From: Acidimicrobiales bacterium
GTDB lineage: Bacteria; Actinomycetota; Acidimicrobiia; Acidimicrobiales; Iamiaceae
Assembly: GCA_035547835.1 (NCBI GenBank)
Contig: DASZTW010000005.1
Coordinates: 558,001-622,000, forward strand
DNA: 64,000 nt
Reading direction: 5' to 3'
Shown here: positions 2 to 4,726 of the stretch, one piece after another
Layout of the letters: each line of letters begins with the position of its first letter
Position numbering within the stretch: position 1 is the stretch's first letter
Program-made: the position numbers and the translations under genes
The notes under the pieces: generated by a model
The model's input: the letters and a program-made list of their open reading frames with translations, nothing else
Database searches by the model: none
Told to the model about the DNA's origin: nothing

Positions 2-841
2 TCAGGACGCGACGGGAGCGACGCGTTGACGCCGCTTGCGCACGTACAAGACGCCACCGGCGAGCACGGCGATGCCACCGACGATCGGCAGACCCTCCAT
101 CGGGAACGACGGGATCGGGCTGGTCGCGGCGTTGACGCCGCACGTCACCTTGCCGATGTTCACCGAGGTGCCCGTGGCCGTTCCCAACACGCTCAGCGCG
201 TCGAGGTGCAGCGCGGTCGCGGTGACCTGGCCACCGCTACCGGCCACCGTGGCCGGGGAGATCGCCAAGTTGGCGATGCCCGGGATGTTGACGTTGGGCA
301 GCGAGATGTTGATCGGCGTGCCGTTGGCCAGTTGCAGGTTGACGATCTGCGCGTGCGCCGTGGCGTTGCCCGACGAGTCAGCCGTGCACCACTCCAGGAC
401 GGCGTCGGCCTTGATGGCCCCGCTCAGCAGCGACACGCCACCGGAGGGTGCGCCCGTCACGGTGCAGGTGCCGTCGTTGCCGATCTGGACCAGGCCGCCC
501 TGGCCGACGGCGCCGGCGCAAGCAGCCGAAGTGCCATCGGTGAACGCCCGAGCTTGCTGGACCAAGGCGCCGGCGGTGGCCACGCCACCGAGTGAGCCCA
601 ACAGGCCCACCGAAGGAGCGGTGTTGCCGGTGTGGGTCTCGGTAGTGCCGTCGTTGGCGGCGGTGTAGACGCCGGTGTCGACGGTCGGGATGCTGAGCAA
701 GGTGACGTCGATGGCGTGCCCGGTCGATTGCGAGGTGTCGGCATACGCCGGCACGGACATCAACAGCACGCCGACGGCGGCGAACGCGACCAGGGCGAAC
801 ACCCTCGATCGTGCGCGTCGGTGATGGGTTGGCTTCTTCAT
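2..841 (-). CDS. Secreted surface protein with C-terminal sorting tail (choice-of-anchor-P-like)
   Basis: 279 aa. It opens with a basic n-region (HHRRARSR) and a hydrophobic core ending in VPAYA, a clear Sec signal peptide cut near residue 35. The middle is rich in Gly, Ala, Ser and Thr, with a few Cys, and has no catalytic motif. The last 40 residues hold S-F-P-M-E-G-L-P-I-V-G (245-255), a hydrophobic stretch and a basic stop (VRKRRQR), the tripartite form of an exosortase or sortase substrate. The ATG overlaps the upstream glycosyltransferase stop (ATGA), so it is the last gene of the exosortase operon and its probable substrate. The resemblance to choice-of-anchor P proteins is by general composition only. 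Processing is inferred. Confidence 0.8.
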   Translation of the reverse strand: MKKPTHHRRARSRVFALVAFAAVGVLLMSVPAYADTSQSTGHAIDVTLLSIPTVDTGVYTAANDGTTETHTGNTAPSVGLLGSLGGVATAGALVQQARAFTDGTSAACAGAVGQGGLVQIGNDGTCTVTGAPSGGVSLLSGAIKADAVLEWCTADSSGNATAHAQIVNLQLANGTPINISLPNVNIPGIANLAISPATVAGSGGQVTATALHLDALSVLGTATGTSVNIGKVTCGVNAATSPIPSFPMEGLPIVGGIAVLAGGVLYVRKRRQRVAPVAS

Positions 842-2439
842 GTTTCCTCCCGCGTTGAGACTGAGACAGTCGGTGCAGTGATGGTGGTTCTACGGGCGAA
901 CCGGCCGGTCACGAGAACCGGTCGCGGCGATTCGTCGGCCGGGGCGGCGAGGGCCGCTGCCGGATAGACGGACTGGAGCTGGCTCTGGTAGGGCGAGGCG
1001 ACCGCGGGGCGCAGGGCGACGGTCGGCCGACGCCGGGCGAAGGAACCCCGGGTGCTGAACCCGCCGGCGAGGCGCCGGGCGAAGCCGGGCAGCGGTCCGT
1101 GCGCCAGCCGAGGCACCAACCGCTCCGTCTTCTTCCAGTCGTGGCGCGACGCCACCAGCCGGATGAACGCCCACCACACGGCCAAGTGGTGGAAATACGT
1201 GTAGCCGACGTTGACGGCCGCAGTGGCGAACGCCTGAGGCCACGACAAGTTGGGGGCGTTGCGGCGCTTGTGGATCGGGCCCCAGATCATGAAGGGCGCC
1301 AAGCCGAACAGCAGGAACAGCGGCAAGATGCCCCAGGCGCCGCCGCGGAACCAGCCCATGAACCCGCCCGGGCTGGTGGCCAGGTAGTAGAGGGCAACCG
1401 CGGTGACGCCGCTGTACACCAGGCCACCGATGAGCTGCAGCCACGGCAGGCACAAGAAGTACGCGATCTCGAGGGCGCCGGCCGTCGAGACCTTCATCGA
1501 CCGCATGACCGGCCACAAGTACCGGATGCACTGCATCGAGCCCTGCGACCACCGACTGCGCTGGCGCAACAAGGGCCGCAAGCTCTTCAGGCCTTCCTGC
1601 GCCACCCATGTGTCGTGGCAGTACTCGTTGCGGTGGCCGGCGAGCAGGACGTGGATCCCGAGCTCGAAATCCTCGAGCAGCGCGCCGTGCCATGGTTCCG
1701 CCTCGGGCCCGCCGATCTCTCGCAGCACGGACAGGCGGCTGAACTGGCCGTTGCCGCCCATGCCCACGCTGTCGACCTTGCGACGCAGCAGTTGCATGCC
1801 GGCGATCGGGCCGGCGAACTCGAGGTCCTGCAACCGGATGAGCATGGAGTCGCGCTGCAACTCGCTGAGCGGGCCGCCGGGAGCGTCGAGGTGGTCGGTG
1901 ACCCGGACCTCGATCTGCACCGCACCCACGGCGGGGTCGCCGAAGCAGCCGTCGCCCGCCACGATCGAGCAACACGCAGGGTCGAGCCGCGCGTCGGCGT
2001 CGACCACACCGACGATCACGCGGTCACTGTCGACCTCGTCACCGACGAAGGCCGCGATGGCCCGATAGCCCGCGTTCAAGGCAGGGCCCTTCCCCTGGCG
2101 GGCCTCGGGCAGCTCACGCGTCACCACGTGGACGTCCGCCAACTCGGTGGCCAGCCGTTGCACGATGGCGGGTGTGCGGTCGGCGCTCGCGTCGTCGACC
2201 ACCCACAGGTGCGCATCCGGGAAGGACCGGCGCAACTCGACGACGGTGGCCTCGATCACGTACTGCTCGTCGAGGGCGGGGATGAGCAGGTGCCAATCGA
2301 ACGCAGCCGCGTCGCCCGGCTCGCCGGGCCGGTGCCGCAAGTACGGCACGATGATCATCACGACGTACGCGAGGAACGCGACGCACAACAAGAACGCCGC
2401 GGCGTTCAGCGCCGCCAGCAGCGTGGGGCCGCTAAGCAC
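838..2439 (-). CDS. Membrane family-2 (processive-type) glycosyltransferase
   Basis: 533 aa. One N-terminal membrane helix (about 5-32) precedes a GT-A domain: VDDASADR (81-88, nucleotide-sugar binding), D-A-D (147-149, metal), E-D (256-257, catalytic base region) and Q-R-S-R-W (293-297, the QxxRW motif of processive GT2 enzymes). Several C-terminal membrane helices follow, as in cellulose or hyaluronan synthase-like enzymes. The GTG at 2439 is chosen because it overlaps the exosortase stop by 8 nt and has GGGGAGG about 7 nt upstream; the open frame extends further but only shadows the exosortase. It probably builds or transfers a glycan at the membrane, perhaps onto the anchored protein. Donor and acceptor are unknown. 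Confidence 0.85.
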   Translation of the reverse strand: MLSGPTLLAALNAAAFLLCVAFLAYVVMIIVPYLRHRPGEPGDAAAFDWHLLIPALDEQYVIEATVVELRRSFPDAHLWVVDDASADRTPAIVQRLATELADVHVVTRELPEARQGKGPALNAGYRAIAAFVGDEVDSDRVIVGVVDADARLDPACCSIVAGDGCFGDPAVGAVQIEVRVTDHLDAPGGPLSELQRDSMLIRLQDLEFAGPIAGMQLLRRKVDSVGMGGNGQFSRLSVLREIGGPEAEPWHGALLEDFELGIHVLLAGHRNEYCHDTWVAQEGLKSLRPLLRQRSRWSQGSMQCIRYLWPVMRSMKVSTAGALEIAYFLCLPWLQLIGGLVYSGVTAVALYYLATSPGGFMGWFRGGAWGILPLFLLFGLAPFMIWGPIHKRRNAPNLSWPQAFATAAVNVGYTYFHHLAVWWAFIRLVASRHDWKKTERLVPRLAHGPLPGFARRLAGGFSTRGSFARRRPTVALRPAVASPYQSQLQSVYPAAALAAPADESPRPVLVTGRFARRTTITAPTVSVSTREET

Positions 2440-2983
2440 GATGCGACCTCCCCCGCCGGCCCCGCGACACGAAGTAGAAGAACGCCAGCGCGCCGAACAG
2501 CACACCGAACGTGGACACCACCGTGCCCAGGAACACGTGGCTGCGCTCGTAGCCGACCCGCAGACCCCACGCGCGGATCGCCGATGCGATGACGAACAAG
2601 CGGGCCTGGTTGGCCAAGAAGACCAGCACGACCGCCAGCGCGGTCGATGCGAGGCCACGCCGGACGGTGACGCGGCCCGTCAGCAACATCGCCGCGCCGA
2701 GGACGAGGAACGGCGCGACGAGGAACGCCGCCGAGCAGCCGGGGTCGAGCGCGACACCGACGTAGCGGCCCTTTGCCGAGAACAACACGTTCGGGCCGAG
2801 CGACCCGACCTGGTGCGCACCGGTGAGCCGCAGGACCGACGCCGCGACCGAGGTCTCGAAGAGGCGAACCGAGCGGTTGGCCGCCACGACGAGTGCCGCC
2901 AGCGCGACGAGGCCCGCAGCCAACACCACCGACGGCGGGCTGAAGCTGCGGTGGGACCTCGCGGGGATCACACTGGCGGTCAT
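2432..2983 (-). CDS. Exosortase/archaeosortase-family transpeptidase, short form
   Basis: 183 aa with about five hydrophobic segments. The expected catalytic trio is present in order: Cys83 in DPGCSAA, Arg128 in NQARLF and His149 in ERSHVFLG. Exosortases are membrane cysteine proteases/transpeptidases that recognise C-terminal tripartite sorting signals and move the protein to a new anchor, often glycolipid-like. This one is compact and lacks the long extra domains of EpsI-type fusions. It starts 12 nt after the 54-aa peptide and overlaps the glycosyltransferase by 8 nt, so the genes are probably co-translated. The family call is strong; the subtype and the exact recognition motif are not established here. 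Confidence 0.88.
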   Translation of the reverse strand: MTASVIPARSHRSFSPPSVVLAAGLVALAALVVAANRSVRLFETSVAASVLRLTGAHQVGSLGPNVLFSAKGRYVGVALDPGCSAAFLVAPFLVLGAAMLLTGRVTVRRGLASTALAVVLVFLANQARLFVIASAIRAWGLRVGYERSHVFLGTVVSTFGVLFGALAFFYFVSRGRRGRSHRA

Positions 2984-2995
2984 GGCGGAGTCAGA

Positions 2996-3160
2996 TCAGC
3001 GGTTGGCGCTGCGCACCATCGCGACGCGCAACAAGATGAAGCCGAGCGCGATCAGCACCAGGGCGAGGAGGGCGAAGCCGATCACAGGGAATCCGGTCGC
3101 CGCCAAGACACCACCCGTGCCGGCCACGGCGCCGCCGCCGAGGACCTTCCCTCCGTACAT
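2996..3160 (-). CDS. 54-aa membrane peptide with sorting-signal-like tail
   Basis: First gene of the exosortase operon. The ATG at 3160 has GAGGAG 6 nt upstream; an in-frame ATG at 3166 directly abuts that site, and a longer 80-aa frame has no better signal. The peptide is a short Gly-rich head, the motif L-A-A-T-G-F-P-V-I-G (19-28), a hydrophobic helix and a basic end (R35-R54 region). L-A-x-T-G resembles class E sortase signals, and G-F-P-V-I-G parallels G-L-P-I-V-G in the anchored protein at the other end of the operon. There is no separate signal peptide. It could be a mini-substrate, a cofactor subunit or a membrane scaffold; none of these is proven. Confidence 0.65.
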   Translation of the reverse strand: MYGGKVLGGGAVAGTGGVLAATGFPVIGFALLALVLIALGFILLRVAMVRSANR

Positions 3161-3496: not shown

Positions 3497-4726
3497 TTGA
3501 ACTCGATTCCCCCGCCTGCCGGGTTCGGTTGCCCTCGACCGGTCCGGACGTTGCGAACCAGACGCGTTGCGGTCCTGGGCTCCCTCGCGGCCCTCGTGTC
3601 GGTCGTCTTGATGGCAACCGGCTGCTCCTCCAGCGGCGGTGGGGTCAAGGTCGCCCGGACCACGACCACCGCCCCCGCGGCCCTCGTGACCGTGACCCCG
3701 GCAGGGGCCGCCACCGGAGTGGCCCTCGATGCCGCGCCGAACGTGATCGTGGAGCACGGCCGCATCACGAACGTGGCCCTGGCGGCTCCCGGTGGCCAAC
3801 CCGTCCCCGGTCAGATCTCACCCGACCAGCACACGTGGAAGGCATCCCCGGGCGTGCTGGTACCGAGCACCACGTACAGCGGCACGGTCTCGGTGCGCGG
3901 CGACAACGGCAAGACCATCGCCCAACCGTGGTCGTTCACCACCTCCGCGCCCGCCCGTGAGCTGCACACCGACTCGGTGAACGTCTGGGACGGTGGCGTG
4001 TACGGCGTCGGCATGCCGATCATCGTGCGGCTCAACACCGCGATCCCCCAGGCGAAGCGTGCGGAGCTCGAACAGCGCATCACGGTCACCGGGACCCCCA
4101 CGGTCACCGGCGCCTGGCGCTGGTTCAGCGACACCGAGCTGCACTGGCGCCCCCAGAACTACTGGACGCCGGGCACGAACGTCACCGTCGACATCAACTT
4201 CGCGGGTTTCGACGTCGACGGTCAGACCTGGGGCGTCGACGGGCGCAAGATCTCCTTCGCCATCGGTGACTCGCACATCTCGGTGGTCGACGCGGCAACG
4301 CACCAGATGGTGGTCCGCACCAACGGCGCCGTCGTCAAGACCATGCCGGTGTCCACCGGACGCGACAAGTACCCGACCAAGTCCGGCATCCATGTGATCA
4401 ACGAGCGCGCCCAGAAGGTGATCATGGACTCGGCCACCGTCGGGATCCCCAGGAACTCACCCGACGGCTACTACGAGACCGTCTACTGGAACGTCCGCAT
4501 CTCGAACTCGGGTGAGTTCGTGCATGCCGCGCCGTGGTCGGTGGGGTCGCAGGGGCGAAGCAACGTGTCGCATGGTTGCGTCAATGTCTCCACGGCCAAC
4601 GCGGAGTGGTTCTTCAACTACAGCCGAGTGGGCGACGTGGTCCAGGTCGTGAACACACCCGAGCAGCTCCAACCGTCCAACGGTTACGGCGACTGGCAGA
4701 TCCCGTGGGCGCAATGGGCGTCGTGA
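3497..4726 (+). CDS. L,D-transpeptidase lipoprotein (Ig-like plus YkuD domains)
   Basis: 409 aa. The TTG start at 3497 has GGAG 6 nt upstream and gives a basic n-region (RPVRTLRTRR), a hydrophobic stretch and the lipobox M-A-T-G-C with Cys43 as the lipidation site. A Ser/Thr/Gly linker leads to Ig-like domain(s) (about 60-240), then a YkuD catalytic domain with the conserved His in EFVHAAPW and S-H-G-C-V-N (358-363), nucleophile Cys361. Such enzymes make 3-3 cross-links in peptidoglycan, or attach proteins to it, at the outer face of the membrane. It is divergent from the exosortase operon, placing two cell-surface functions side by side. The architecture matches actinobacterial Ldt proteins. 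Confidence 0.93.
   Translation: MNSIPPPAGFGCPRPVRTLRTRRVAVLGSLAALVSVVLMATGCSSSGGGVKVARTTTTAPAALVTVTPAGAATGVALDAAPNVIVEHGRITNVALAAPGGQPVPGQISPDQHTWKASPGVLVPSTTYSGTVSVRGDNGKTIAQPWSFTTSAPARELHTDSVNVWDGGVYGVGMPIIVRLNTAIPQAKRAELEQRITVTGTPTVTGAWRWFSDTELHWRPQNYWTPGTNVTVDINFAGFDVDGQTWGVDGRKISFAIGDSHISVVDAATHQMVVRTNGAVVKTMPVSTGRDKYPTKSGIHVINERAQKVIMDSATVGIPRNSPDGYYETVYWNVRISNSGEFVHAAPWSVGSQGRSNVSHGCVNVSTANAEWFFNYSRVGDVVQVVNTPEQLQPSNGYGDWQIPWAQWAS

Follow-up and report, generated by a model that had tools for sequence, protein, structure and literature searches.

Two predicted tail signals, of exosortase and sortase type, in one operon of an Acidimicrobiales bacterium

The window considered here, a stretch of 64,000 nucleotides from an Acidimicrobiales bacterium (GCA_035547835.1, contig DASZTW010000005.1, positions 558,001 to 622,000), begins with a minus-strand operon that encodes a 54-aa membrane peptide, a 183-aa exosortase, a processive family 2 glycosyltransferase (GT2), a secreted choice-of-anchor-P protein, which is the proposed exosortase target, and a fifth gene. 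The main finding is that the peptide and the target, as read from their sequence profiles, carry two separate signals. We consider it likely that an exosortase of unnamed subtype processes the choice-of-anchor protein together with a second surface protein, that a glycan made with the GT2 is involved, and that the peptide is a miniature substrate of a class E sortase. What becomes newly recognisable is probably a tail signal for trimming and anchoring a few surface proteins, with a peptide beside it that bears a sortase-type signal. A preliminary description of the operon had proposed a system that pairs an exosortase with its own GT2 and a secreted substrate, which is borne out, and its four genes lie where it placed them on the minus strand, with a 12-nt spacing or overlaps between them; it was mistaken as to which of the products share a signal.

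Why should so small a system be of interest? To our knowledge no exosortase acceptor is known in envelopes of the Gram-positive type. The exosortase of this operon has very few predicted substrates (two in the window genome), and one of them is encoded beside it together with a single GT2, so that few parts suffice to study enzyme, signal and acceptor together. Among the papers listed by literature searches none is on an actinobacterial system of exosortase, GT2 and choice-of-anchor type, and the PEP-CTERM survey counts zero examples in Actinomycetes (PMC1569441).

One motif, two signals

According to the preliminary description, G-[FL]-P-[VI]-[IV]-G just before the terminal helix is a signal common to the first and last products. 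The motif is present at the residues given, as G-F-P-V-I-G at residues 23-28 of the peptide (3077..3094, minus strand) and G-L-P-I-V-G at residues 250-255 of the target. When back-translated and sought across the whole 3.7 Mb genome it occurs 13 times, with three occurrences for the reversed pattern as control, and only the two window copies start a C-terminal hydrophobic tail. Their co-occurrence in a single operon is genuine but is not conserved among relatives.

Reciprocal profiles clearly separate the two products. A peptide profile built with the window left out gives the window peptide 42.1 bits, the target tail 5.4 bits and the nine tails described below at most 10.6 bits, and a tail profile built with the window genome left out gives the window tail 41.4 bits, a second tail of the same genome on contig C17 37.6 bits, the window peptide -0.8 bits and sixteen related peptides at most 6.7 bits. 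On this test we reject one shared motif acting as one signal. That peptide and choice-of-anchor protein are both exosortase substrates through G-[FL]-P-[VI]-[IV]-G is accordingly a reading we hold to be very improbable: besides the clear split of the profiles, L[AP]xTG is kept in 16/16 peptides, with G-x-P-[IV] directly after it in just two (those of the window and of genome G272), and the peptide is present in six genomes without a detected exosortase. In favour of that reading are the placement of the two window copies, the G-x-P-I found in both G272 products and the D or E at that place in both products of genomes G761 and G297. Even for targets the exact motif is too narrow, the window's own being the sole carrier among nine target tails, and an exact search of the genome missed the second target on C17 because its fifth residue is Ala.

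The target tail signal

The target (2..841, minus strand; 279 aa) exceeds the choice-of-anchor P cut-off (NF040603, 38.1 bits against 27) and lies under those of the LPXTG anchors (TIGR01167, 13.6 against 15.9 bits; PF00746, 18.4 against 20 bits). Its tail signal, PSFPMEGLPI, spans residues 244-253 (83..112, minus strand) and belongs to a motif, P-x-[FIV]-P-x-x-G-x-P-[IV], found in 6/6 tails of the window group, whether encoded in the operon or unlinked, on unrelated proteins. The corresponding operon tails are PMFPAKGLPI in G021, PVIPAAGAPI in G272 and PLVPKQGVPV in G250, while G761 has PLFGSDGMEI and G297 has PLFGNDGLEI; the form PLFG[SN]D belongs to one relative genus, and in these two genomes the proteins taken as targets, on account of their tails, are of secreted type and are encoded immediately upstream of the peptide.

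A profile of the six operon tails, run over 34 genomes, returned three further unlinked tails at E<1e-5, namely PAFPEQGYPI in G021 (contig C38, E 5.4e-8), PAFPVKGLPI in the window genome (C17:36525, E 1.2e-7) and PLFGSDSVAV in G761 (contig C18, E 6.9e-6), so that both G761 tails read PLFGSD. All three of these blind matches fall in the 7 genomes that have a GT-linked exosortase, for which the chance is about (7/34)^3 = 0.009, and the best match in the other 27 genomes, at 1.2e-4, covers the helix part only. Several of those 27 hold other exosortases (G167, G140, G259, G712 and G671). In these comparisons the tail motif follows the exosortase lineage, and the idea of a dedicated tail signal is upheld: exosortase-positive relatives do carry such tails, with P-x-[FIV]-P-x-x-G-x-P-[IV] in place of the motif first suggested. 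A nine-tail profile run over 80 genomes recovered its nine seeds at E<=6.2e-12, with the next best match at 5.8e-4; in many genomes of the tail searches it was the first 90 or 150 candidates that were scored. The corrected motif provides a searchable signal.

The second target of the window genome, on C17, is about 426 aa long if counted from its probable Met; it probably begins with a signal peptide and resembles the DUF11 type weakly, with a score under the cut-off. It ends in the same tripartite tail as the operon target, with P-x-F-P-x-x-G-L-P-I, a hydrophobic helix and an Arg cluster. Other choice-of-anchor-P proteins of this genome, at two more loci, have different tails. Among known signals the PVV-CTERM tail of choice-of-anchor G proteins (NF051874) aligns with the target end, both having P-[IV]-[VI] before the helix, but the target reaches only 13.9 bits against a cut-off of 27 and the conserved part here is the upstream P-x-F-P-x-x-G. 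The tails might instead be ordinary C-terminal membrane anchors, the exosortase having other protein substrates or none, and it is true that two exosortase loci have no recognised target and that tail cleavage is a prediction from sequence. We nonetheless regard plain anchoring as quite unlikely, since the six window-group tails share their motif across unrelated proteins and the blind matches are confined to genomes with a linked exosortase.

A rare exosortase and its glycosyltransferase

The exosortase (2432..2983, minus strand) exceeds the broad family cut-offs, with 31.1 bits against 23 for TIGR04178 and 27.8 against 25.7 for PF09721. A trio of Cys, Arg and His is defining for exosortases and archaeosortases, and the full trio noticed at the outset is here C83, R128 and H149, which do not vary among three aligned exosortases (3/3). 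The structure model has a mean pLDDT of 69.0, and Foldseek returned 0 matches at E<=0.001 against the PDB. The subtype models give nearly tied scores that lie far below their cut-offs, at 72.7 bits against 150 for XrtR (NF012138), 68.6 against 200 for XrtP (NF012139) and 64.5 against 145 for XrtS (NF033767), and by these models the enzyme therefore belongs to none of the three; two close relatives show the same near-tie. The XrtP, XrtR and XrtS systems with choice-of-anchor proteins (NF040603) likewise combine a short exosortase, a glycosyltransferase of NF053846 type and a choice-of-anchor-P domain, but differ in that the window enzyme scores 64-73 bits against subtype cut-offs of 145-200. 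With the PEP-CTERM/EpsH system of exosortase A (PMC1569441) it has in common an exosortase near polysaccharide genes and a tripartite C-terminal tail, but the XrtA model gives the window enzyme 9.8 bits against 208 and the signal is different.

How widespread is this enzyme? Within the order it was matched in 9/298 genomes at E<=0.001, the window genome counted. Strong homologues occur in two of the 297 others (E 4e-35 and 6e-34), and the remaining six matches have E values between 7e-4 and 7e-11. In a sample of the phylum two of 396 genomes matched at E<=1e-5, one of them the window genome, and named XrtP was absent from a random phylum sample, where the one match in 296 genomes was again the window genome, under the cut-off. 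A scan of GTDB 220 with narrow patterns, one genome per species, confirmed two exosortase loci, in metagenome-assembled genomes of Acidimicrobiales and Acidimicrobiaceae. Among viral contigs 37 stretches fit a search pattern and zero were confirmed; plasmids gave no exosortase match and four distant glycosyltransferase (GT) matches, with no exosortase named among the listed neighbours of the three inspected. The window exosortase is probably a rare subtype of the Acidimicrobiales, unnamed so far, as far as these models and searches indicate.

The GT2 (838..2439, minus strand; 533 aa) is of the XrtP-associated type, with 514.9 bits for NF053846, just under the cut-off of 520, and its relative in G021 is above it at 529.3 bits. 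At E<=1e-50 the GT is present in 23/397 genomes; five matches score at least 389 bits (the window, G021, G272 and two in G250), after which the scores drop to 313. In a tree of 23 GTs, calculated without the second G250 copy, whose frame is broken, all 7 exosortase-linked copies fall on the same side of a single branch (support 85/73, present in 84% of bootstrap trees, and no shuffle of 500 as low), and the rows with peptide only and with neither type are intermixed. This single-branch grouping suggests that the exosortase was probably gained once, by a GT locus that already bore the peptide. At the second G250 locus (L062:7324-9357, minus strand) two frames share the GT match between them, and the frame with the GT start also contains the exosortase match; the split may be either real or an assembly error.

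The LAxTG peptide family

The peptide (2996..3160, minus strand) is the first gene of the operon and belongs to a conserved family of 16 short leaderless peptides, found around GT and exosortase genes in 15 genomes of 10 genera. Each combines L[AP]xTG with a hydrophobic helix and has one or more basic residues close to its end; the window peptide has LAATG at residues 19-23 (3092..3106, minus strand), the helix and 3 basic residues in its last 14. Its G23 is both the last residue of LAATG and the first of GFPVIG, the latter being unconserved among its relatives. All but one of the 16 share a stretch with a GT, and in the exception, G272, the peptide adjoins the exosortase and the GT is on another contig. 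In 249,405 bases of control DNA the window's own was the sole short peptide, the four other matches being tails of frames of 293-966 codons.

When the peptide profile is run over 397 genomes, the 16 peptides themselves take the top 16 places (at least 45.0 bits), and the next match is at 39.8. Weak matches are common, in 217/397 genomes at E<=0.001, and therefore a line of 45 bits was used, chosen after the gap between 45.0 and 39.8 had been seen; the few weak matches that were read as tails in other searches are sortase-type tails of long proteins. The L[AP]xTG peptides occur in 15 of 23 GT-positive genomes, the other eight being without a peptide, and none of the 374 GT-negative genomes has a match of 45 bits or more. 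The enrichment is partly one of construction, because 12 of the 16 peptides were used to build the profile and the remaining four come from genera represented in it, but the missing scores in the 374 GT-negative genomes are free of that effect. With each genus left out in turn, 13/16 peptides score 24.9-50.8 bits and the three of genus g98 12.9-17.9. The nearest named family is the LAXTG motif-containing small protein NF058583, the best family for the window peptide (E 0.0012) and for its relatives (down to 1.3e-9 in G761), although the window peptide reaches 18.4 bits and the best relative 37.5 against a cut-off of 65.

With respect to the exosortase, 7/7 genomes with a GT-linked copy carry the peptide. 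Of the 15 peptide genomes, six (G740, G117, G091, G729, G220 and G280, of 81-97% completeness) have no TIGR04178 match, and in G167 and G259 the match lies on a different contig. With respect to sortases, every one of the 23 GT-positive genomes has one over the cut-off. Seven sortases from six genomes, one a fragment, were scanned, and the best match was class E in all seven, over the cut-off in two; the window genome has two sortases, both with E as best class match. In G117, G280 and G729, all of genus g98, a sortase gene is found on the strand of the peptide, 3.4-4.2 kb away, and the other 12 peptide genomes have no sortase near the peptide, many of their contigs being short. LAXTG is described as the class E sortase signal in PMC5148588, and the window peptide resembles the substrates described there in having LAATG, a helix and a basic tail, but differs in being leaderless and of just 54 aa, in an operon that encodes an exosortase and no sortase.

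An alternative is that the peptide stays uncut and serves the GT2 as a small accessory subunit, much as other synthases have small membrane proteins as helpers, with LAxTG as a helix-cap motif. This would fit a bare transmembrane helix without a leader that tracks the GT family rather than the exosortase, yet the combination of L[AP]xTG, helix and basic tail in 16/16 goes beyond what a helix cap needs, and sortases are found in all GT-positive genomes and linked in one genus; we give this alternative some weight and hold it to be unlikely. The peptide is most likely a leaderless mini-substrate of a class E sortase. A leaderless LAxTG family tied to one GT2 family would suggest a link between sortases and a surface glycan. 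DUF2334 proteins were seen in four peptide-family loci that have no linked exosortase (L065, L066, L067 and L070), and the G231 locus contains a UDP-GlcNAc 2-epimerase.

Proposed mechanism

Both tail-bearing proteins would be exported by Sec and held in the membrane by the tail, whereupon Cys83 of the exosortase may cut at or near the P-x-x-G-x-P motif and transfer the C-terminus so formed to an acceptor; this is probably a glycan or glycolipid to whose synthesis the partner GT2 contributes. For exosortases generally the transfer of a new moiety has the status of a proposal (PMC11980579, PMC1569441). The LAxTG peptide would be a regular companion of the GT2 locus rather than an exosortase substrate, inserted with its N-terminus out and C-terminus in, and a class E sortase would leave about 22 of its residues on the wall. 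Residue 2 of the peptide is Tyr in 12/16 and Ser in 4/16. A more elaborate possibility, which we hold to be very improbable, is that two sorting chemistries serve one glycan locus, such that the exosortase hands P-x-F-P-x-x-G-x-P-[IV] proteins to the GT2 glycan and the peptide is the protein primer of that glycan, glycosylated at Tyr2 or Ser2 before a class E sortase attaches it to the wall at L[AP]xTG.

Several observations weigh against the preferred reading of an exosortase with two targets and a sortase-type peptide. Cleavage, acceptor and glycan are all steps that we infer. The support of the GT branch is moderate, G259 has a second short exosortase-like frame on another contig (C113:9950-10216, 211 codons, unmatched by the window-type profile at E<=0.01), and the limit on scored candidates makes missed tails possible. 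The G021 blind tail comes from a frame of 56 codons that runs into a contig end, no target was recognised at the G231 exosortase locus or at the second one of G250, and next to the G474 exosortase stands a target-like protein that is without the motif. On the side of the peptide, the g98 members join the family weakly, at about 13-18 bits with their genus left out, linked sortases are found in only 3/15 peptide genomes, all of that genus, and the lack of a signal peptide is unlike usual sortase substrates.

Operon layout and neighbouring genes

The peptide gene has GAGGAG immediately 5' of ATGAGAATG, and the exosortase gene begins 12 nt past its stop. The GTG start of the GT2 follows GGGGGAGG, the GT2 gene overlapping the end of the exosortase gene, and the GT2 stop and target start are joined by an ATGA overlap. 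The fifth gene, of 483 aa, begins 9 nt past the target stop, just beyond the window edge. For the window copy neither NCBIfam (E<=1) nor Pfam (E<=0.01) gives a match, the G272 copy having been scanned against Pfam only. Relatives of the fifth gene lie in the matching neighbourhood of G272 (E 1.2e-9) and of G021 (E 4.6e-6), and the three copies of this conserved gene lie at L006:10541-11992, L061:1068-2789 and L058:5806-6954, all on the minus strand. Divergent from the operon, at 3497-4726 on the plus strand of the window, is a gene that by eye encodes a lipoprotein with an L,D-transpeptidase (YkuD-like) domain, and downstream of the operon, outside the window at L006:5723-10489, a polysaccharide ABC exporter pair, an epimerase and a GDP-mannose dehydratase can likewise be made out by eye.

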